DNA of 40,147 nt from a virus. Below the pieces are notes generated by a model, which worked only from the letters and a program-made list of their open reading frames with translations, had not been told where the DNA came from and searched no databases. Every line of letters starts with the position of its first letter. The first letter of the stretch is position 1. Location: positions 1 through 40,147 of IMG/VR virus record IMGVR_UViG_3300036859_001049, one strand, 5' to 3'. Both the position numbers and the translations under genes were made by a program. Positions 1 through 39,681 of this stretch are shown here, piece by piece.

Positions 1-1392
1 TCACGCTCGTCCTCCTCTTCCTCTGATCGGCAGCACCTTCGCGGTGTAGCCGTCCGTCTTCAACCTCGTCAGGTACGCGGCCCACGACACGAACGCGGCA
101 CGCCGCTCGTCGAGCAGCTCCGCGTGGTCGTAGATGTCGGTTGCCTCCGCGATCTTCGGATCCGCGCGCTGCGTGTGGCCGAGGATGCGCCCGGTGACTT
201 CCTTGGCGACGCGCAGCCGGTCGATCATCACGGTCGTGATCGTGTGGCGCAGCGTGTGCGGGGACCAGTGCGGCACCTTCTTGCGCGTGGCCACAACGTC
301 GATGACATCCTCGTCGTCGGGGCGCTTCTTCGGCATGAGCGGCAGCGGCTCGCCGCGCGCCTCGAGCAGCGCAACGGCCAGCTGGTAGCGCAGCAGCTGC
401 GTCCAGTCGGATGTCCACGCCCACGGCGCCGGCGCCGCGTCCTTCCGCCGCGGCTTCCCGGGGAAGAGCAGCGCGCCCGATGTCGACGCGAGGCGGCGCT
501 GCGCGACGACGACGGCGGCCGCGGATAACGGCACCAGGTGCGAGACGCCGCGACCGATCTTCGCCTTCGTGCCACGGCGCTCGGGCGGGATCACGGCGAG
601 CGGCGCCTCGCCGGTGACGTCGACCAAGTCGTCGTCGTGCAGGCCGAGCACCGCGGACTCGCGCAGGCACGTGAAGAGGAGCAGCTCCGTCGCGTCCGCC
701 TGTAGCGGCCAGGCCTTCTGCAGACGCTCGAGCGCGACGAGCAGCGCGAGCAGCTCTTCGTCGGAGAGCACCCTCTTCCGTCGACGGACGCGCTCGTCGG
801 TCGGCGGCTTGAGGCCCGTGCACGGCGAGGCCTGCACGAGCTCCTTGTCCATCGCCCAGGTGTAGATGCGGCGGATGACGGCCAGCACGCGGTTTGCCCG
901 CACGGGTGCGCGCTCGATGATCGGGTCGAGCAGCTCGCGAACGTCCGCGCGCACGATGCCAGCCGCGGGGCGGGTGCCGAGCGCGGGCTTGAGGACACGG
1001 TCGATGATGCCCTCCCAGTCGCGGCGCGTGTCCGGACGCAGCTTCGCCTGCGCCATGTACTTGTCCGCCAGGCCGGAGAAGCTGAGGCGCTCGGCCTCCG
1101 CTGCGCGCCGGCGCTCCTGGCGCCGCTCGTCGAGCGGGTCCCGCCCGAGGCCGACCGCGGAGAGGATGCGGCGCGCCTCGGTGCGCGCGGCCGCCAGACC
1201 GAGGGGCGGCGTCGCGCCCAGCCAGTACCGCCGCACGCGGGCGAACCGGCTGTAGCGCACGTAGAAGGCGCGCGCCCCGGTGGGGGACACGCGCAGCTGC
1301 AGGCCCGGGACGACGGTATCGGTGTACTCGGTCCGTCGTCCGTTCAGCGCCTGCAGCTGGTGGAAGGTGTTGGCGTGTAGCTTCAGTCGCAC
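1..1392 (-). CDS. int: Tyrosine-type phage integrase (P4-like)
   Basis: Site-specific recombinase that would integrate and excise the phage. 463 residues, GTG start at 1392 and TGA at 1-3, so the gene is complete at the window edge. Residues 1-100 look like the P4-type N-terminal arm-binding domain, about 105-200 a SAM-like core-binding domain, and 205-440 the catalytic domain. The catalytic set is visible: Arg244 (TCLRES), His379/Arg382 (HTLRH), His406 (GH) and probably Tyr421 (IYDHAE). Between the first Arg and HxxR there is a longish insert (about 310-370). It is transcribed away from the rest of the phage. Family assignment is firm; the attachment site is outside the window or not recognisable. 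Confidence 0.95.
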   Translation of the reverse strand: MRLKLHANTFHQLQALNGRRTEYTDTVVPGLQLRVSPTGARAFYVRYSRFARVRRYWLGATPPLGLAAARTEARRILSAVGLGRDPLDERRQERRRAAEAERLSFSGLADKYMAQAKLRPDTRRDWEGIIDRVLKPALGTRPAAGIVRADVRELLDPIIERAPVRANRVLAVIRRIYTWAMDKELVQASPCTGLKPPTDERVRRRKRVLSDEELLALLVALERLQKAWPLQADATELLLFTCLRESAVLGLHDDDLVDVTGEAPLAVIPPERRGTKAKIGRGVSHLVPLSAAAVVVAQRRLASTSGALLFPGKPRRKDAAPAPWAWTSDWTQLLRYQLAVALLEARGEPLPLMPKKRPDDEDVIDVVATRKKVPHWSPHTLRHTITTVMIDRLRVAKEVTGRILGHTQRADPKIAEATDIYDHAELLDERRAAFVSWAAYLTRLKTDGYTAKVLPIRGRGGRA

Positions 1393-4159: not shown

Positions 4160-4567
4160 CTACGCGTGCGAGCCTGATCGCTTTCGCGTCGGCGTGCGAC
4201 GCGTTGGCGGCTGAGCTGCGTCGCCTTCTTCCTCCTCGGGCAGCTCGCCGGCGAGGTGTCGCGCCTCGTCAGCAAGCCTCTCGACGGCTCGCAGTAACCG
4301 GCGTACTGCGGCGGCGGAAACCGAAGGCGGCAGGTCGGGCGGTGAAGGGGCCGCCGGCGCGCCGAGGAGCCAGTCGACAGTAACGCCTGTGACCTCGGCA
4401 ATCAGGGCCAGGTCGTCTAGGTTCGGCTGCGCTACGCCCTTGATCCACTTGCCGACGGTGGACTCATGACGACCCATCTTGGCGGCCATAGCGCGGTTGT
4501 TCAGGTGCGCTCGATCGAGGGCATCCTGGAGGCGCTCGAGGAAAATCGAGGAGGAGCTTTGCTTCAT
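4160..4567 (-). CDS. Phage repressor, HTH (cI/Xre-like)
   Basis: 135 residues from ATG 4567. Residues 5-68 are an Xre-type DNA-binding domain; the helix-turn-helix is about 23-44 (RAMAAKMGRHESTVGKWIKG), followed by PNLDDLALIAEVTGVTVDWLLG, typical of this family. The C-terminal half is a short helical segment then an acidic and a basic low-complexity tail; there is no LexA-like peptidase domain, so RecA-stimulated self-cleavage is not expected. It is divergent from the Cro-like gene, the standard immunity layout. An open frame continues upstream but runs antisense through the Cro-like gene, so the short start is preferred. Confidence 0.85.
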   Translation of the reverse strand: MKQSSSSIFLERLQDALDRAHLNNRAMAAKMGRHESTVGKWIKGVAQPNLDDLALIAEVTGVTVDWLLGAPAAPSPPDLPPSVSAAAVRRLLRAVERLADEARHLAGELPEEEEGDAAQPPTRRTPTRKRSGSHA

Positions 4568-4604
4568 CGGGCTGGCGAGTCCCGCCACCCTAGATGAAAA
4601 GTGC

Positions 4605-4633
4605 TTGACAGATCCGCTAGTCATGAGTACCTT
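4605..4633 (+). promoter_or_regulatory. Early promoter of the Cro-like gene
   Basis: TTGACA at 4605-4610 is a perfect -35; after 17 bp comes TACCTT (4628-4633), a weaker -10. Predicted start of transcription is about 4640, only 3-4 nt before ATG 4644, so the mRNA would be almost leaderless. It lies in the divergent gap between repressor and Cro-like gene. Confidence 0.65.
4606..4623. promoter_or_regulatory. Candidate operator inside the early promoter
   Basis: TGAC (4606-4609), 10 bp, GTCA (4620-4623): an inverted repeat of 18 bp overall, spanning the -35 and the spacer. A dimeric HTH repressor bound here would block the polymerase. Half-sites are short, so this is a suggestion. Confidence 0.35.
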
Positions 4634-4643
4634 GCTGCCTGAA

Positions 4644-4850
4644 ATGGCTAGCGAGGAGTCACGGCTCAGCCGGATCCGCAAGGCGCAGGGCGTCCGGCGC
4701 GAGAAGATCGCCGCGGATGCTGGCATTTCCGTCCAGTACCTCTGGGCGCTTGAGCGTGGCAAACACCAGCCCAGCCTCGACGTCGCCCGCCGCTTGGCGG
4801 CGGCCCTGAACACGACCGTCGACCAGCTGTTCCCCGAGAGGGCGGCGTGA
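4644..4850 (+). CDS. Cro-like / Xre-family transcriptional regulator
   Basis: 68 residues from ATG 4644 (MASEESRLSRIRKAQG). Nearly the whole protein is an Xre-type HTH: helix-turn-helix about 21-40 (IAADAGISVQYLWALERGK), then PSLDVARRLAAALNTTVDQL. An in-frame ATG at 4623 would add seven residues but lies within the promoter, upstream of the predicted transcript start, so 4644 is preferred. Neither ATG has a clear ribosome site, which fits a leaderless message. First gene of the rightward early operon; its GTGA end is shared with the next gene. Could be a Cro repressor or an early activator. Confidence 0.8.
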   Translation: MASEESRLSRIRKAQGVRREKIAADAGISVQYLWALERGKHQPSLDVARRLAAALNTTVDQLFPERAA

Positions 4851-5449
4851 CGAGCACTCGTAGCGCACGCCTGCAACTTGCGCCGCCGGTCCCCGAGCCA
4901 TCAGTGCCGATGAGTGGCCATGCGGAACTGGTGCGCGGCCGGATCATCGAGCGCCGTCAGGACCTGGCCGTCGACGAGCCGGGCGGCATCGATGTCGGCG
5001 CCCAGGCGATCGCCGCGATGCACGAGGCCGCCTACGGCGAGATCCCGCAGATTCGGTGCGACCGCCAGGTCCGCTACCGAGGGATGCAGCTCGCCGGCGA
5101 GAAGGCGCTGCCGCTCGAGGACCTGCCGGCCATCCGTCGCAAGGGTCCGGTCGGCCAGGCCGTCGTGGTAGCCGCGCTGCGCGTGCTGGCCGCGGACTGT
5201 GGCTACACGCTGGCGCCCTCCCAGACGAGGGCGGACGGAGACGTCCACGAATCCCTGGCGGGGGTGATCGAGCAGTCCGCCACCGTCACCGCCACCGCAG
5301 CGCGCGCGCTTCAAGATCGCGTCTTCGCGCCAGCCGAAGCTGCCGAGCTGGTGGCGAAGATCCAGGGACTGAAGGCCGCGGTAGCCGACCTCGAGGCCGT
5401 GAGCGACGAGCTCGCGCGCGGGGGAGTCGCGAGGGCGGCGTGCCGCTGA
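4847..5449 (+). CDS. Putative phage regulatory protein (CII-like position)
   Basis: 200 residues, GTG start overlapping the upstream stop. The middle (about 50-115) carries an Ile/Arg/Gln-rich part then a conserved-looking KGPVGQAVVVAALRVLAADC segment; the C-terminal third is a long helix rich in Ala, probably coiled. Its place directly after the Cro-like gene and the general layout remind me of phage regulatory (CII-type) proteins, but no diagnostic motif is seen. Coupled by TGATG to the following small HTH gene. Function is inference. Confidence 0.5.
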   Translation: MTSTRSARLQLAPPVPEPSVPMSGHAELVRGRIIERRQDLAVDEPGGIDVGAQAIAAMHEAAYGEIPQIRCDRQVRYRGMQLAGEKALPLEDLPAIRRKGPVGQAVVVAALRVLAADCGYTLAPSQTRADGDVHESLAGVIEQSATVTATAARALQDRVFAPAEAAELVAKIQGLKAAVADLEAVSDELARGGVARAACR

Positions 5450-9061: not shown

Positions 9062-9567
9062 AGAAGCCGATCCGCTACGCCGAGGGCACGTCCGTCCCGG
9101 CCGAGAAGACGCAGTTCGAGATCCGCCAGCTGATCGGCCGCCACGGTGCCGAGGGCTTCGCGTACGCCGAGACGCCGAAGCTCGCGCGCATTGAGTTCAT
9201 GACCCGCGGGCGGCGCATCCGGTTCGAGCTGGCGATGCCCCAGCTCGACGCGGCGCTGTACACGCCCGGCGATCGCGAGCGCGGGGCCCAGTACCGCGAG
9301 CTCTTCGGCAAGAGCCGCTACTGGCGGACCGACGCGACCGCGCACGCGATCCGCGAGCAGGAGATCCGGCGCCTGTGGCGCTGCCTGCTGCTCTGCATCA
9401 AGTCGAAGTTCGAGGTTGTGGCCACGGGCATGGCGATCTTCGAGGAAGAGTTCCTCGTGAACATCGTTCTCCCGGACGGCCGCACCGCCGGCGATCACGT
9501 CGTTCCCGCCATCGCCCGCGCGTACGAGACCGGCCGCGTCGTCGGCCTGCTGGGCACGGGGGAGTAG
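9058..9567 (+). CDS. Conserved phage/mobile-element protein of unknown function
   Basis: 169 residues, ATG 9058. Pattern TQFEIRQLIGRHGAEGFAYA, then RRIRFELAMP, then EQEIRRLWRCLLLCIKSKFE and EEEFLVNIVLPDGRT. I recognise this arrangement from an uncharacterised family frequent in siphophages and integrative elements, often near replication genes. Alpha/beta, soluble. No function is known to me. Stop is 26 nt before the ParB-like ATG. Confidence 0.7.
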   Translation: MKKPIRYAEGTSVPAEKTQFEIRQLIGRHGAEGFAYAETPKLARIEFMTRGRRIRFELAMPQLDAALYTPGDRERGAQYRELFGKSRYWRTDATAHAIREQEIRRLWRCLLLCIKSKFEVVATGMAIFEEEFLVNIVLPDGRTAGDHVVPAIARAYETGRVVGLLGTGE

Positions 9568-9593
9568 GCCCCCGCCCCATGAACGGAGGAGAG

Positions 9594-11267
9594 ATGGACG
9601 AGTTCCGAAAGATCCCGCTCGACCAGATCGTCGAGTCGAAGACCAACCCGCGCCGCCACTTCGACAAGGCCGCGCTCGAGCAGCTCGCCGCGAACATCAA
9701 AGAACGCGGCGTGCTGGTGCCGCTGCTCTTGCGACCCAACCCCGGCTCCACGAGCGTCTCGGAGTCGCTGTGCGACTTCGAGCTGGTCGCCGGCGCCCGC
9801 CGCTTCCGTGCCGCCAGGATGGCAGGGCTCGACCAGGTGCCCGCCCGCGTCCTCGATCTGTCGGACGACGCCGCGCTCGAGGTGCAGGTGATCGAGAACC
9901 TGCAGCGCGAGGACGTCCACGAGCTCGACGAGGCCCAGGGCTACGAGGCCCTCAAGGCGCGCGGGTACGACGTGCCGACGATCGCGGCGAAGGTGGGAAA
10001 GGACAAGAGCTACATCTACAAGCGGATGAAGCTGTGCGCGCTGACGAAGGCCTCGCGCACGGCGTTCTTCGAGGGAAAGGTCAGCTCGTCCATCGCCCTC
10101 CTGGTGGCGCGTGTCCCCTCGGATCTCCAGGCAAAGGCGCTCGACGTCATCGTCGAGAACGAGATGGGCTTCCGGCAGGCCTCGGACTACCTGCAGGACG
10201 AGTTCATGTTGCGCCTCGACGAGGCGCCGTTCCCGGTGTCCGACGCGCAGCTGGTACCCGCCGCCGGCTCGTGCGGCTCCTGCCCGAAGCGCACGGGCAA
10301 CAACCCCGACCTCTTCGGCGAGATCAAGAGCGCGGAGATCTGCACTGACCCCGCGTGCTTCAAGTTGAAGGTGAAGACCCACGCCGAGAAGCGGCTCGCG
10401 GAGGCCCGTGCGAAGGGGGTCGAGGTCCTGTCGGACGCCGCCGCGAAGAAGGTGATGCCGTACGGCGACGACTACGTCAATCCGTCTGCGGGCCTCGTGC
10501 GACTGGACGACGCTTGCCATGAGGACCCGAAGGGCCGGACGTACAGGAAGCTGTTGAAGGACGTGGAGCCCGCGTTCGTAAAGGTGCTCGTCAAGGACGG
10601 GGCCGTCGTCGAGCTGGTCGACCGGAAGGCAGTGACGGCCGCTCTGAAGGCGGCGGGCCACGACTTCGCGAAGGCCAGCAACCAGGCGCGCCCGGTCGGC
10701 GCCTCGTCCCACAGCGTGGAGGAGAAGCGTCGGACGGAGAAGGCCGCGCGCGAGACGCGTATCCGCTCGCTCATCGCGCGCGACATCCACGACCGGGCGC
10801 CGGCGACGCTCGTCGACGTCGAGCTGCTCCGCGCCGTGGCCGAGGGCTTCGTGCAGGAGGTCTGGAACGAAAACCAGAAGCGGCTCGCCAGCATCAACGG
10901 ATGGAAGGACATCGCCGACCTGAAGAAGGGGCTCAAGACCGCCGACGCCACGGCGCTCGTGTCTTTCCTGCTGACGGCGGCCGTGGTGCGCGAGGTGTAC
11001 GTCTCGACCTACGAGATCGCGCCCAGATCGAGCCGGCTGCTCGCGATCGCGCGCCGCCTGAAGATCGACCCCGAGAAGATCCGCCGCGACGAGCTGGCGG
11101 CCGCGACCGCGCGGAAGGACGCCAGGCCGCCGGCGAAGTCGGCCGGTGCCCGGGCAGTCGATCGAGTCCTGAACGCGAAGAAGAGCAAGCCCCCGAAGAA
11201 GAAGCCGGCGGGCCCGCTCGCGCGGAAGGCGAAGGGGAAGGCGGCCAAGGGCAAGAAGGCCGCGTGA
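9594..11267 (+). CDS. ParB/Spo0J-family protein
   Basis: 557 residues. ATG 9594 is preceded by GGAGGA; an ATG at 9579 lies before that ribosome site and is less likely. ParB N-terminal (CTPase) domain about 5-110 with NPR (18-20), GARRFRAA (67-74, the GxRRxRA box) and ENLQRED (101-107). HTH about 129-150. Then a CGSC...CTDPAC unit (Cys227, 230, 250, 255), probably zinc-binding, seen in phage/plasmid ParB-like proteins. A lysine-rich tail ends the protein. No ParA partner is present, so classical partition is doubtful; DNA binding near replication or gene control is as likely. Confidence 0.85.
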   Translation: MDEFRKIPLDQIVESKTNPRRHFDKAALEQLAANIKERGVLVPLLLRPNPGSTSVSESLCDFELVAGARRFRAARMAGLDQVPARVLDLSDDAALEVQVIENLQREDVHELDEAQGYEALKARGYDVPTIAAKVGKDKSYIYKRMKLCALTKASRTAFFEGKVSSSIALLVARVPSDLQAKALDVIVENEMGFRQASDYLQDEFMLRLDEAPFPVSDAQLVPAAGSCGSCPKRTGNNPDLFGEIKSAEICTDPACFKLKVKTHAEKRLAEARAKGVEVLSDAAAKKVMPYGDDYVNPSAGLVRLDDACHEDPKGRTYRKLLKDVEPAFVKVLVKDGAVVELVDRKAVTAALKAAGHDFAKASNQARPVGASSHSVEEKRRTEKAARETRIRSLIARDIHDRAPATLVDVELLRAVAEGFVQEVWNENQKRLASINGWKDIADLKKGLKTADATALVSFLLTAAVVREVYVSTYEIAPRSSRLLAIARRLKIDPEKIRRDELAAATARKDARPPAKSAGARAVDRVLNAKKSKPPKKKPAGPLARKAKGKAAKGKKAA

Positions 11268-11290: not shown

Positions 11291-11320
11291 GCTGGGCGCG
11301 TGTTGAAGCACGCGCCCAGC
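11291..11320 (+). terminator. Perfect 12-bp hairpin after the ParB-like gene
   Basis: GCTGGGCGCGTG (11291-11302), loop TTGAAG, CACGCGCCCAGC (11309-11320). Very stable, 23 nt after the stop. No T run follows, so it may be a terminator of the non-canonical GC-rich type, an mRNA stabiliser, or a ParB-related site. Confidence 0.5.
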
Positions 11321-13395: not shown

Positions 13396-13626
13396 ATGGA
13401 GCCGGCCGCCCTGCTGTGCGACGCGCCCGGGTGCCCGGGCCTGCGCGCCGACGCAGCTCTGCTGATGGAGACCACGAAGGGCCAGCTCTGCTCGGCCTGC
13501 TGGAAGCGCCTCGGCTATCCGCCGTCGCCGGCGGACGCCGGGCCTGCGCAGCCCTTCGTGCCTGTGGCCGCTAGCCGGATGACGCAGGAAGCGGCCCTGG
13601 CCCTCGAGCGCAAGAGGCGGAAGTGA
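13396..13626 (+). CDS. Small zinc-ribbon-like protein
   Basis: 76 residues, ATG 13396. CDAPGC and CSAC pairs (LLCDAPGCPGLRA, GQLCSACWKRLG) suggest one zinc site; then a proline-rich part and a basic helix LALERKRRK. Ends in a GTGA overlap with the ASCH gene. Unknown function. Confidence 0.5.
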   Translation: MEPAALLCDAPGCPGLRADAALLMETTKGQLCSACWKRLGYPPSPADAGPAQPFVPVAASRMTQEAALALERKRRK

Positions 13627-14120
13627 GGGATCCCCTCGAGTCCGCCGCGCGCCCGTACCTGCGCGCGATCACGCTCTGCCAGCCCTGGGCGTCGCTGCTG
13701 GTGATCGGCGCGCGCGTGTACGACGTCCAGCACCAGCCGACCCTCTACCGCGGCGAGCTCGCGATCTTCGCGAAGCTCGAGTTTCCAGAGTGGGCCCAGC
13801 ACAAGGCGCTCGAGCGCGAGTTCGCAGGCCTGCTGTCGGCCGCAGGCCTGAAGCCCTGGGCTCTGCCGCGCGGCGTCGTGCTCGGTGTCGCCGACCTGGT
13901 CGACGTCCAGTCGATCGAGCAGGAAGGCGTCGTCGCCGGCGTCGCCATGTGCACGCTCGAGCGGCGCCTCAGCGACTACAAGGTCGGCCGCTACGCCTAC
14001 CGCTACGAGCGCATCCGCCGGCTGCGCGAGCCGATCGGCACCCGCGGCCGCGCTGGCCTCTGGCACTGGCGTTCACCTAAGCCGCTCGTCTTCACGGAGA
14101 GACCAGCAGACCCGAGATGA
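13623..14120 (+). CDS. ASCH-domain protein
   Basis: 165 residues, GTG 13623. LRAITLCQPWASLLVIGAR, then YRGELAIFA, LPRGVVLGVADLVDV and YRYERIRRLREPI are the expected strand-by-strand markers of the ASCH/PUA-like fold: QPWA at the start of the first helix, GxVVGxAxL in the centre. ASCH proteins bind RNA or act on modified nucleosides; some hydrolyse N4-acetylcytidine. In phage the role is unclear. Coupled to the initiator gene by ATGA. Confidence 0.85.
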   Translation: MRDPLESAARPYLRAITLCQPWASLLVIGARVYDVQHQPTLYRGELAIFAKLEFPEWAQHKALEREFAGLLSAAGLKPWALPRGVVLGVADLVDVQSIEQEGVVAGVAMCTLERRLSDYKVGRYAYRYERIRRLREPIGTRGRAGLWHWRSPKPLVFTERPADPR

Positions 14121-15205
14121 CCTCCACCCCCGGCAGGGCGCCGGACCGCGTCGTGAAGGACGTCGTCTCACGGAAGGGGTCTGTCTACTCGCCGGTCGAG
14201 CGCTTCGTCGCGTGGACGATCGCCGACCACATCAACCTCGAGCTCGGGTACGCCTGGCCGTCGATCGCGCGCCTGGTCGACCACACGGGCTTCTCCGAGA
14301 GGGCCGTCAGGAACGCCGTGCGTGCCCTCACGAGCGGCCCGCGCGCGCTGTTCGACCGTGAGGAGCCACCCCCGGGCGGCTGGCGCGACGGACGGGCAGG
14401 GCGCGAGCGTGGAGGCCGCGACGGCAGCTCGCGCTACCGCGTCCGCAGGGCCGTCCTTGAGGGGCACCACGTGCCCCCCATTGAGGGGCATCAGGTGCCC
14501 CCCATGGACGCGATGAGGGGCACCACGTGCAGTGATGAGGGGCACCAGGTGCCGGGATGGGGGGCACCAGGTGCCTACTACAGTCCGAATAGAACTTCCG
14601 AGAGAACGTCCGATACACACCCCCCTACCCCCGCTCACGAGCGGGGGCGCCCTCTCCCGAGCGCGAGCCAGCTGGTCTGGCAGCGATGGCTCGAGGCCCA
14701 GCAGATCGGCGCCGGCGGCCTGGCCGACAAGCGCTGGCGGAAGTGGTGCGGCGACCAGCTGCGGACACGCGGCATCGCCGCCGGCGAGCAGCTCGTCCGA
14801 CAGCGCATCGCGCGCGACGCCGAGGAGCGCCGCCAGGCGGCCGCGGAGGACGAGCAGCTCGCGGAGGTCCACGCGGCCGCGCGGGAGCTGCTGGCGCAGG
14901 CGCAGCGCGAGGGCCAGCCTCCGGGCGAGCTGTGGACACGGTTCATCGCCGCGGTCGAGGCGCGTGTAAACGAGCACGCCTTCGGCACCTGGTTCCGCTT
15001 CCTGGCGCCCGTAGCGCTCCTGCGCGGCGGCGCCGGCGAGCGTCTGATCGTGGCCACACCGAGCGCGCAGCACCGCGGCTGGATCGAACGGAACTACCGG
15101 GCCCAGGTCAGGGACGCGCTGCGCGACATCGGCCGCGATGACCTGGAGCTCGAGCTGCTCGTCGATCCCGCGCACGCGCCGCCTGGCGCATCGAGGGCCG
15201 GGTGA
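14117..15205 (+). CDS. Replication initiator: winged-helix plus DnaA-N-like domain
   Basis: 362 residues. Residues 20-75 are a winged helix of the HTH_36 type found in phage replication proteins (FVAWTIADHINLELGYAWPS, then GFSERAVRNAVRAL). About 275-355 resembles DnaA domain I (LWTRFIAAVEARV, FGTWFRFLAPV, LIVATPSAQHRGWIERNY), which in DnaA recruits helicase and other partners. The linker (114-153) is low-complexity because its DNA is five iterons. By analogy with lambda O, the protein would bind the iterons in its own gene and load the host helicase through the DnaA-N-like part. No phage helicase loader is seen nearby. Confidence 0.8.
   Translation: MTSTPGRAPDRVVKDVVSRKGSVYSPVERFVAWTIADHINLELGYAWPSIARLVDHTGFSERAVRNAVRALTSGPRALFDREEPPPGGWRDGRAGRERGGRDGSSRYRVRRAVLEGHHVPPIEGHQVPPMDAMRGTTCSDEGHQVPGWGAPGAYYSPNRTSERTSDTHPPTPAHERGRPLPSASQLVWQRWLEAQQIGAGGLADKRWRKWCGDQLRTRGIAAGEQLVRQRIARDAEERRQAAAEDEQLAEVHAAARELLAQAQREGQPPGELWTRFIAAVEARVNEHAFGTWFRFLAPVALLRGGAGERLIVATPSAQHRGWIERNYRAQVRDALRDIGRDDLELELLVDPAHAPPGASRAG
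14458..14574. repeat. Five 17-bp iterons, probable replication origin
   Basis: Copies at 14458-14474, 14482-14498, 14514-14530, 14536-14552 and 14558-14574, all on the same strand, consensus TGRGGGGCAYCASGTGC. Starts are 24, 32, 22 and 22 bp apart. Each contains a partly palindromic core (GCACCASGTGC). They lie within the initiator gene linker, as the origin does in lambda O. Other regions of the gene show no such repeats. Confidence 0.8.
14575..14627. other. Low-GC segment next to iterons, candidate unwinding element
   Basis: Starts CTACTACAGTCCGAATAGAAC; 14576-14621 is roughly half A+T, clearly lower in GC than the surrounding sequence. Its position directly beside the iterons is where an origin unwinds. 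By eye only. Confidence 0.5.
14628..14647. other. Hairpin beside the candidate origin
   Basis: CCCCCGCT (14628-14635), loop CACG, AGCGGGGG (14640-14647): 8 perfect pairs. It may mark a single-strand initiation site or simply limit unwinding. Occurs within the initiator coding sequence. Confidence 0.45.
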
Positions 15206-15510
15206 GGCCCGAGGACCTGCCGGGCCCGTGGGAGACGCCAGGCGAGCAGCGACGCGAGGAGGTGGTCGGTGAAGAGCGGCGGCAGACGCAGACCAAAGGC
15301 GAGGTGCCGAAACGGAAGCCGGGCGAGACGGGCCTCGCGTTCGTGCGGCGGCTCGCGCAGGAATGGCACGGGCTGGAAGTCCCGCCCGAGGACCCGCCGC
15401 CACCACCGCCGGGCAAGCTGAGGGTGCCGCGCAAGGTGCGCCCCTTCGAGGAGCGGATCGAGGACATCTACCGCGGCGCGCGCGACCGCGAGCCGGGTGA
15501 GGAGGGCTGA
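15202..15510 (+). CDS. Early-region hypothetical protein
   Basis: 102 residues, GTG 15202 overlapping the initiator stop. Charged, with a Pro run (PPEDPPPPPP) between two helical parts (GLAFVRRLAQEWHGL and RPFEERIEDIYRGARD). No domain recognised. Its coupling to the initiator gene suggests a replication accessory role, but this is only position. Ends in TGATG with the next gene. Confidence 0.55.
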   Translation: MRPEDLPGPWETPGEQRREEVVGEERRQTQTKGEVPKRKPGETGLAFVRRLAQEWHGLEVPPEDPPPPPPGKLRVPRKVRPFEERIEDIYRGARDREPGEEG

Positions 15511-20794: not shown

Positions 20795-22431
20795 TCCTCC
20801 AGGTCCCGCCCGTCGACTCGAAGCCGTGGCCGACGCTGGGCCCGCTCGTGTGCGACTGGATCGAGGAGAACCTGGTCTTCGGCCCGGGCGATCTGCGCGG
20901 CCTGCCCGCGCGCGTCGACGACCAGAAGCGCGCGTTCCTCTACTCGTTCTACGAGGTCCACCCGAAGGGCAGCCCGCGCGCCGGCCGCCGCCGCTTCGAT
21001 CGTTGCGCGCTGTCGCTCCGGAAGGGCGTGGCGAAGTCCGAGTTCGCGGCGTGGATCGCCGGCGCCGAGCTCCACCACGACGCGCCCGTGCGGTGCATCG
21101 GCTTCGATCGGCGCGGCAACCCGATCGGCGGGCCCGTCACGGACCCGTACATCCCGCTGATGGCGAACACGGAGGAGCAGAGCGAGGAGCTGGTGTACGG
21201 CGCCCTGAAGGCGATCCTGGAGCTGTCGCCGATCGCCGGCGACTTCGACATCGCGCTCCAGAACGTCGTGCGTTCGGACGGCACGGGGAAGGCCGTCGCA
21301 CTCGCCGGCGCGCCGGGCCCGCGCGACGGCGCGCGCACCACGTTCCAGGTCTTCGACGAGACGCACCGTCTCTTCTCGCCGCGGCACAAGGAAGCCCACC
21401 GGACCATGCTCGCCAACATGCCGAAGCGCCCGATGGCCGATCCGTGGGCGCTCGAGGTGACGACGGCCTTCTCGCCCGGCGAGCGCAGCGTGGCCGAGGA
21501 GGCGATGGACTACGCGCGCGCGATCAAGGAAGGCAAGATCGCGAACCCCTCGTTCTACTTCTTCCACCGCCAGGCCAGCGACACGCTGAAGATCTACGAC
21601 CGTGAGGGCGCGGTGATCCCGCGCGCGCTGCGCAAGGCTGTGGTCGAGGCCTCCGGGCCCGACGCCGGATGGTCGGACATCGACCGCATCACGAAGCAGT
21701 GGGACGACCCGAAGGCCGACCGCTCCTTCCTGGGCCGCGTCTGGCTGAACCAGCCGAAGCAGGCGGCCGACCGCGCCTTCTCCGTCGTGGCCTGGCAGAA
21801 CTGCGCGGACCCGGACTACGAGATCCCGGACGGTGTCCTCATCACGCTCGGCTTCGACGGCGCGCGCACGAACGACTCCGTCGCGCTGATCGGCACCGAG
21901 ATCTCGACCGGCTTCCAGGCCGTGCTCGGCCTGTGGGAGCGGCCGCGTACCGCGAAGGTGTGGGAGGCCCCGGAGGAGCTGGTCGAGGAGGCCGTCGCCG
22001 CGGCGTTCGCGCGCTGGAAGGTCTGGCGCATGTACGCGGACCCGCCCTACTGGGAGACGAACGTCGCCACCTGGGCGAAGGAGCACGGCGACGAGGTCGT
22101 GATCCGGTGGCGGACGAACCAGTGGACCAAGATGGCGGCCGCCTGCGCCGCCTACGCGACCGCCATGGCTCAGGGCCACCTGAAGCACGACGGCAACGCG
22201 GACATGGAGAGCCACGTCGGCAACGCGCACAAGCTCCAGATGCACGCGCGCGACTCCGACCGCAACTTCCTGTGGGTGATCGTCAAGGAGCGAAAGGACT
22301 CGCCGAACAAGATCGACGCCGCGGTCGCCGGGATCCTGTCGTGGCAGGCGCGCACGGACGCGCTGACGTTGAACGCCACGCCCGACGACGGGCCGTCGAT
22401 CTACGAGTCGCGAGGCATGGTGACCATGTGA
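20791..22431 (+). CDS. terL: Terminase large subunit
   Basis: 546 residues from GTG 20791. ATPase: Walker A-like SLRKGVAKSE (75-84) and Walker B FQVFDETH (185-192, DE = catalytic acidic pair). C-terminal nuclease: GFDGARTNDSVALIG as its first strand with a catalytic Asp, MYADPPYW in the middle and KIDAAVAGILSWQ near the end with the last Asp. It pumps DNA into proheads and cuts concatemers. Full length. Similar to terminases of HK97-type siphophages with an adjacent HNH gene. Confidence 0.93.
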   Translation: MILQVPPVDSKPWPTLGPLVCDWIEENLVFGPGDLRGLPARVDDQKRAFLYSFYEVHPKGSPRAGRRRFDRCALSLRKGVAKSEFAAWIAGAELHHDAPVRCIGFDRRGNPIGGPVTDPYIPLMANTEEQSEELVYGALKAILELSPIAGDFDIALQNVVRSDGTGKAVALAGAPGPRDGARTTFQVFDETHRLFSPRHKEAHRTMLANMPKRPMADPWALEVTTAFSPGERSVAEEAMDYARAIKEGKIANPSFYFFHRQASDTLKIYDREGAVIPRALRKAVVEASGPDAGWSDIDRITKQWDDPKADRSFLGRVWLNQPKQAADRAFSVVAWQNCADPDYEIPDGVLITLGFDGARTNDSVALIGTEISTGFQAVLGLWERPRTAKVWEAPEELVEEAVAAAFARWKVWRMYADPPYWETNVATWAKEHGDEVVIRWRTNQWTKMAAACAAYATAMAQGHLKHDGNADMESHVGNAHKLQMHARDSDRNFLWVIVKERKDSPNKIDAAVAGILSWQARTDALTLNATPDDGPSIYESRGMVTM

Positions 22432-39354: not shown

Positions 39355-39681
39355 GTGATCGAGTGGAAGCTGCCCTGCGAGCTCTGCGGCGAGCGCGACG
39401 TCGAGATCCACGCGGCCTGGCCGGCGGAGCGCCATCCGCTCGGCCATTCGCACGAGACGGTCGTGGTCCACTGGAATGGCGACCGATGCTATCCGCTCCG
39501 CCGGCGCGTCGAGGTGGCCGCGGCCGCGCCTGATGACCCGAGGCGCGCAGCTCGCGCGGGGCTGCCAGGCGCGCTCGCTGCCGCGCGGCGGCGCCGCCTC
39601 GAGGCGGACGAGGAGCGCGAGGCGGGGGACGCCCGCCTCGCGCGCTCGGATCCTAGGGGGCCGTCACCTCGGGCACGGTGA
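39355..39681 (+). CDS. Small hypothetical protein with Cys pair
   Basis: 108 residues, GTG 39355. WKLPCELCGERDVEIHAAWP and a later HWNGDRCYPLRRR; then Ala/Arg-rich helix of doubtful coding quality. Overlaps the convergent gene by 29 bp at its end and carries a 12-bp hairpin in its last part, so the functional product may be shorter. Unknown. Confidence 0.45.
   Translation: MIEWKLPCELCGERDVEIHAAWPAERHPLGHSHETVVVHWNGDRCYPLRRRVEVAAAAPDDPRRAARAGLPGALAAARRRRLEADEEREAGDARLARSDPRGPSPRAR
39615..39643. terminator. Strong hairpin between convergent genes
   Basis: GCGCGAGGCGGG (39615-39626), loop of 5, CCCGCCTCGCGC (39632-39643): 12 perfect pairs. It lies 9 bp past the stop of the minus-strand gene at 39653 and likely ends that transcript. 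No T run. Confidence 0.5.

Follow-up and report, generated by a model that had tools for sequence, protein, structure and literature searches.

An origin of replication located within the gene of its own initiator is known from phage lambda, where O dimers bind iterons that form near-perfect inverted repeats and where lambda P brings the DnaB helicase (PMC5043065). In the lambda O gene, which we used as a control, the four annotated iterons are followed at once by the lowest-GC 40 bp of the gene. The phage locus described here shares with lambda O and its origin an initiator of putative winged-helix type, dyad iterons within the gene and an adjoining low-GC block; it differs in that the C-terminus of the initiator resembles DnaA domain I and no match to lambda P was found. 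Other described systems share single features with this locus. For example, pLS32/pBS32 RepN and other RepA_N initiators also carry a helix-turn-helix (HTH) and have iterons in their own gene (PMC4490491; PMC3155836), but they belong to a different N-terminal family and are stated to have no A+T-rich region (PMC4490491); RepN functions without DnaA and requires DnaD and DnaB (PMC10201431). DnaA-like plasmid replicases of the Rhodobacterales, a described type according to Petersen et al. 2011 as cited in PMC9025767 and PMC3832669, are likewise initiators with similarity to DnaA, as far as these citing accounts describe them.

Phage initiators of the HTH_36/PHROG 391 type (e.g., those of Pseudomonas phage PP9W2, Itty13, the viral loci L003 and L037, and others) also have an HTH at the N-terminus and a linker with GGCACCWNGTGC-type dyads followed by GAACC-type A+T-rich repeats. 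However, these initiators differ in the C-terminus (relatives of L003 are annotated as "primosomal protein I"), and many of them carry or neighbor a DnaB helicase, unlike the phage studied here. The initiator of Brevibacillus phage Jenst (YP_009199065.1) combines HTH_36, 17-mers in the linker and a C-terminal DnaA_N domain, as does the initiator described here, but its iteron sequence is a different one, its genome is low in GC, and no sequence relation is recognizable outside the domains. The plasmid initiator of Alicyclobacillus sp. ALC3 (L080) has HTH_36, six linker repeats, an A+T-rich block with repeated TGAATATATCAC and a C-terminal DnaA_N; it differs in being encoded on a plasmid, in also matching DnaD_N and in having all of its repeats in one reading frame, so that these are less clearly a DNA element. 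Judging from these sequences, the combination of HTH, linker repeats and DnaA_N is not unique to the phage described here, as Jenst and the Alicyclobacillus plasmid precede it. No description of HTH_36 together with in-gene iterons and DnaA_N was found in the literature searched, which lay largely outside subscription journals.

The window analyzed here, i.e., the whole 40,147-bp virus record IMGVR_UViG_3300036859_001049, represents a temperate tailed phage by gene content, with a tyrosine integrase (1-1392, minus strand), an HTH repressor (4160-4876, minus strand), an HNH nuclease, RusA, small and large terminase, portal, prohead protease and capsid. This integrase-carrying phage also encodes a 630-aa ParB-like protein with ParB_N and HTH_ParB (9375-11267, plus strand); no ParA match was found among the ORFs scanned. 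Two hairpins with 12-bp stems, at 11291-11320 and 39615-39643, are the strongest of the record and lie within or beside intergenic gaps. The gene directly upstream of the initiator (13623-14120, plus strand) matches PHROG 3193, which carries no functional annotation, and its product is presumably ASCH-like, as judged by eye from the sequence.

The initiator gene (14117-15205, plus strand) is an ORF encoding 362 aa, with an in-frame GC3 of 0.88 as compared to a GC2 of 0.56, and shares 4 bp (ATGA) with the upstream gene. Residues 25-71 (14189-14329, plus strand) match the Pfam helix-turn-helix HTH_36 with 23.1 bits (E = 6.5e-5), just below the cut-off of 25, while residues 21-73 match PHROG 270, 1032, 391 and 8540 ("replication initiation protein" or "O-like"); the predicted recognition helix is SERAVRNAV. 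With the HTH ending at approx. residue 71 and DnaA_N starting at residue 271, the protein shows the two domains and the intervening linker that a sequence-only reading of the window had assigned to it. When viral contigs and species genomes were searched by pattern plus tblastn, no relatives of the complete initiator were found; tblastn of the initiator against annotated phages and against plasmids returned a single partial match in each case (to the HTH only or to a plasmid DnaA), and a portal-based search for kin returned two fragments only, neither of which extends to the initiator. These searches thus found no close relative by which conservation of this particular fusion of HTH and DnaA_N could be gauged.

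Five exact plus-strand matches to TGRGGGGCAYCASGTGC start at 14458, 14482, 14514, 14536 and 14558 (spacings of 24, 32, 22 and 22), i.e., five copies in 117 bp that fall into the linker at approx. residues 114-153 of the initiator, exactly as the five same-strand 17-bp repeats had been described. The individual copies, all on the plus strand, are TGAGGGGCACCACGTGC (iterons 1 and 3, 14458-14474 and 14514-14530), TGAGGGGCATCAGGTGC (iteron 2, 14482-14498), TGAGGGGCACCAGGTGC (iteron 4, 14536-14552) and TGGGGGGCACCAGGTGC (iteron 5, 14558-14574). When up to 3 mismatches and both strands were allowed, 8 matches to TGRGGGGCAYCASGTGC were observed as compared to 1.16 expected by chance. The iterons are near-palindromes about a central A (GGGGCACC-A-GGTGCCCC, of the GGCACC-A-GGTGCC type), and both overlapping minus-strand matches and inverted pairs were observed. 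A scan of species genomes for an exact iteron pair gave no match.

The 45 bp immediately after the last iteron (14575-14619) have a GC content of 46.7% as compared to a record mean of 70.5%, and represent one of the 3 lowest-GC clusters of the record (percentile 0.0004), which bears out the claim that a lower-GC stretch follows the repeats. This block, which we predict to be a probable duplex-unwinding element, contains two 12-mers on the plus strand, TAGAACTTCCGA (14590-14601) and GAGAACGTCCGA (14602-14613), of a GAAC/GAAT repeat kind that also occurs in related origins; these two repeats and the dyad symmetry of the iterons had not been part of the sequence-only reading. The block is followed by a C tract, CCCCCCTACCCCC (14620-14632, plus strand), which resembles a tract at the corresponding position of 6 of the 20 other origins examined, and by a hairpin with an 8-bp stem and a 4-nt loop (CCCCCGCT-CACG-AGCGGGGG, 14628-14647), similarly placed in some relatives. 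While the hairpin is thus present as claimed, it does not stand out as a distinctive feature, since stems of this length are frequent in the record (26 entries with at least 8 pairs, overlaps included); with a fold z-score of -1.88, it is by itself unremarkable for this genome. A function of this hairpin as a terminator was rejected, as no T run is present.

The layout of the site recurs in other viruses. In IMG/VR, 2.9 million viral contigs were searched, using DNA only and no protein criterion, for two GGCACCWNGTGC dyads within 33 bp, which yielded 52 loci, including L002 and L003, which were already known from an earlier scan. In 25 of the 50 remaining loci, an HTH initiator ORF lay over the dyads (E < 1e-4, with an HMM built from the N-termini of this initiator, L002 and L003, and with several near-duplicates among the loci); many of the loci without such an ORF represented long repetitive ORFs. 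Among 21 genes, the 60 bp past the last iteron contained 41 [AT]GAA[CT] words as compared to 8.4 in shuffles and were unusually A+T-rich for their own locus, with a low-GC block in nearly all of these genes. Moreover, a CCCCC(T)(T/A)ACCCCC-type tract was found past the A+T-rich block in 7 of the 21 origins (L048, L030, L015, L027, L051, L050 and this phage). Many of the proteins encoded at dyad loci have a recognition helix resembling SERAVRNAV, whereas a different helix is found in Jenst and ALC3, whose repeats have other sequences. Recognition of the dyads by the HTH domain is thereby supported, though not proven.

Overall, these sequence comparisons indicate that the iteron array and the low-GC block very probably form a replication origin inside the initiator gene, as had been proposed from the repeats and their position. 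GC skew, which had been put forward as a further indicator, did not back this proposal, as it showed no clear switch at 14458-14647. The array itself is a DNA element. A protein-level repeat (GHHVP/GHQVP) with no function in the DNA would be compatible with the fact that three of the five iterons (1, 2 and 4, offset 2) share a frame and encode similar peptides, but iterons 3 and 5 are located in the two other frames (offsets 1 and 0, respectively), and the repeats vanish when the codons of the initiator gene are shuffled synonymously (mean of 0.017 exact iteron copies, maximum of 1, in 300 trials). The occurrence of iterons in three frames and their loss upon shuffling imply that the DNA element rather than the peptide is kept; with the protein-repeat reading refuted by the frame test, its probability is negligible. 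An alternative in which replication starts elsewhere and the repeats act as the initiator gene's operator, for autoregulation or copy control, appears unlikely: although the iterons of many plasmids also control initiation (PMC5043065; PMC3832669), the array lies approx. 340 bp into the gene, no promoter-like site was found close to it, a low-GC block of the kind found in the lambda origin follows it directly, and it is the only iteron-like array in the 40-kb record, where the only further family with several copies is a GAC-rich acidic-protein repeat. Control and origin roles of the array can, however, coexist. Even less probable is that the array serves the ParB-like protein (9375-11267) as its centromere. 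While the gene of this protein is located 3 kb upstream of the array, in many viral records the same dyads are found over HTH initiator genes, and 15 of 24 such records, fragments included, have no ParB_N match; the dyad tracks the HTH gene and not ParB, and an assignment of the array as a ParB site was rejected for this reason.

At the other end of the initiator, residues 271-336 (14927-15124, plus strand) match DnaA domain I (DnaA_N, PF11638) with a Pfam score of 30.8 bits (cut-off of 24.6), and the only solved structures that matched the initiator sequence at E < 0.01 were DnaA chains (4tps and 8btg). The match to full-length DnaA (TIGR00362; 18 bits) is confined to the first 75 of 437 positions, and a Pfam scan found neither the AAA+ domain nor domain IV of DnaA in the initiator. 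A DnaA_N match with 11 bits at 20995-21075 is located inside the terminase frame and was taken as chance. As the model of the full-length initiator was poor (pLDDT 47), the C-terminal 89 residues were modeled alone (single-sequence, pLDDT 71), which yielded the element order H-H-E-E-H-E. The top three Foldseek matches to this model all represented DnaA domain I, 4tps and 2e0g among them (TM 0.5-0.7, E 0.007-0.03); 4tps, which is DnaA domain I in complex with SirA, showed a TM of 0.65-0.73, and the fourth match was the helicase loader DciA bound to DnaB. Sequence matches and predicted fold thus agree with the earlier suggestion of a DnaA-like C-terminus, and homology of the tail to DnaA domain I is well supported by both. 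B. subtilis requires residues T26, W27 and F49 of DnaA domain I for the recruitment of DnaD to the origin (PMC10201431). In our alignment of the initiator with DnaA, the Thr-Trp pair (T26, W27) is kept, within FGTW, while the position of F49 (F46 in E. coli) is occupied by Gln and that of E. coli E21 by Ala. The partner-contact Phe is kept in 7 of the 8 plasmid and phage relatives aligned, the Hymenobacter protein having Arg.

DnaA_N was also found on other initiators. A DnaA_N consensus query, which was composed from the known pattern with the sequence of this phage in mind and whose matches were confirmed independently by Pfam, identified such initiators among annotated phage records only in the Brevibacillus phages Jenst and SecTim467; its other matches in phage records were mostly unannotated fragments or chromosomal DnaA, and many matches were found in plasmids. 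In Pfam searches, a C-terminal DnaA_N was combined with HTH_36 in Thermobacillus, B. licheniformis, Alicyclobacillus, Jenst and Terribacillus (in the latter with HTH_36 under the cut-off), with RPA/Rep3_N in Rubrobacter (L073) and with Rep3_C in Hymenobacter (L079). Repeats between HTH_36 and DnaA_N were present in Alicyclobacillus ALC3 and Jenst and absent from most other plasmid genes. A Sulfitobacter protein encoded beside parAB (L076), which we take to be probably of the Rhodobacterales DnaA-like replicase type, also has DnaA_N at its C-terminus, but is shorter than the phage initiator and shows no clear in-gene iterons. A 295-aa protein of a Leptolinea plasmid (L081, 2941-3828) carries DnaA_N at the N-terminus and no other Pfam domain, and possibly represents another arrangement of the module. 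Three scans of viral contigs for other DnaA_N initiators, with patterns so narrow that rarity is not implied, found none that was real, and DnaA_N was present in 0 of 29 related viral records tested.

While a lambda-style intragenic origin is itself known, the variant observed here is an initiator that ends in DnaA domain I. The origin of this phage is that of lambda in layout, but it is not part of a lambda O/P module, as there is no PF06992 match and the next gene (15202-15510) has no Pfam match. The missing helicase and loader, which had been taken to fit a mimicry of DnaA, were borne out in that DnaB_C, IstB/DnaC and lambda P (PF06992) had no match in the 40-kb record, with none in Pfam scans of the main ORFs. 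A clear DnaB_C helicase was found in 13 of 29 related viral records. In many of the others, no helicase and no loader were found, in part owing to the fragmentary nature of these records; an absence so common among viruses of the same origin type fits DnaA mimicry but is not specific to it.

We infer the following sequence of events. The five dyad iterons at 14458-14574 would be bound by the N-terminal winged-helix domain, which probably acts as a dimer, and the filled array would strain and melt the adjoining low-GC block (14575-14619). The copies of DnaA domain I brought to the array in this way would in turn recruit the replicative helicase of the host, either by themselves or via a host loader, so that the phage would need neither a helicase nor a loader of its own. 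Given the origin, a DnaA-type recruitment of the helicase by the tail is likely and represents the best available mechanism; the explanation as a whole, i.e., a lambda-O-type initiator with the origin in its linker and a DnaA domain I tail that draws the host helicase, is on balance probable. The Gln at the F49/F46 position and the commonness of missing helicase and loader genes weaken the recruitment part of this explanation. DnaA domain I self-associates, and the tail could serve self-association of the initiator or contact another host factor at a correctly recognized origin, with the helicase arriving through an unrecognized phage protein or a PriA-type route. The replaced Phe and the Ala at the E21 position would fit such a tail, as would the several early ORFs of the phage with no Pfam match, which could encode loaders of a new type. 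We consider this rather improbable, as the Thr-Trp pair of the interface is kept, as the fourth structural match was a loader in complex with DnaB, and as the recurrence of DnaA_N at the C-terminus of unrelated DNA-binding initiators is a better fit to a shared recruiting role.

How temperate phages without a loader acquire the host helicase is mostly unexplained outside lambda and a few models, and one compact gene that carries the origin, an origin-binding domain and a DnaA-type recruiting domain would be a directly testable answer; that a second phage and a plasmid share this layout hints at a solution of general use. The combination of dyad iterons with GAAC-type A+T-rich repeats and, in some cases, a C tract also permits origins to be called from sequence alone in many uncharacterized phages. 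More tentatively, and with somewhat less than even confidence, DnaA domain I may be a portable helicase-recruiting module that has been attached repeatedly to unrelated initiators (lambda-O-like HTH_36, Rep_3, RPA and DnaD-like), providing phages and plasmids with a loader-free route. If so, many free copies of the module in a phage could additionally divert helicase from the origin of the host.
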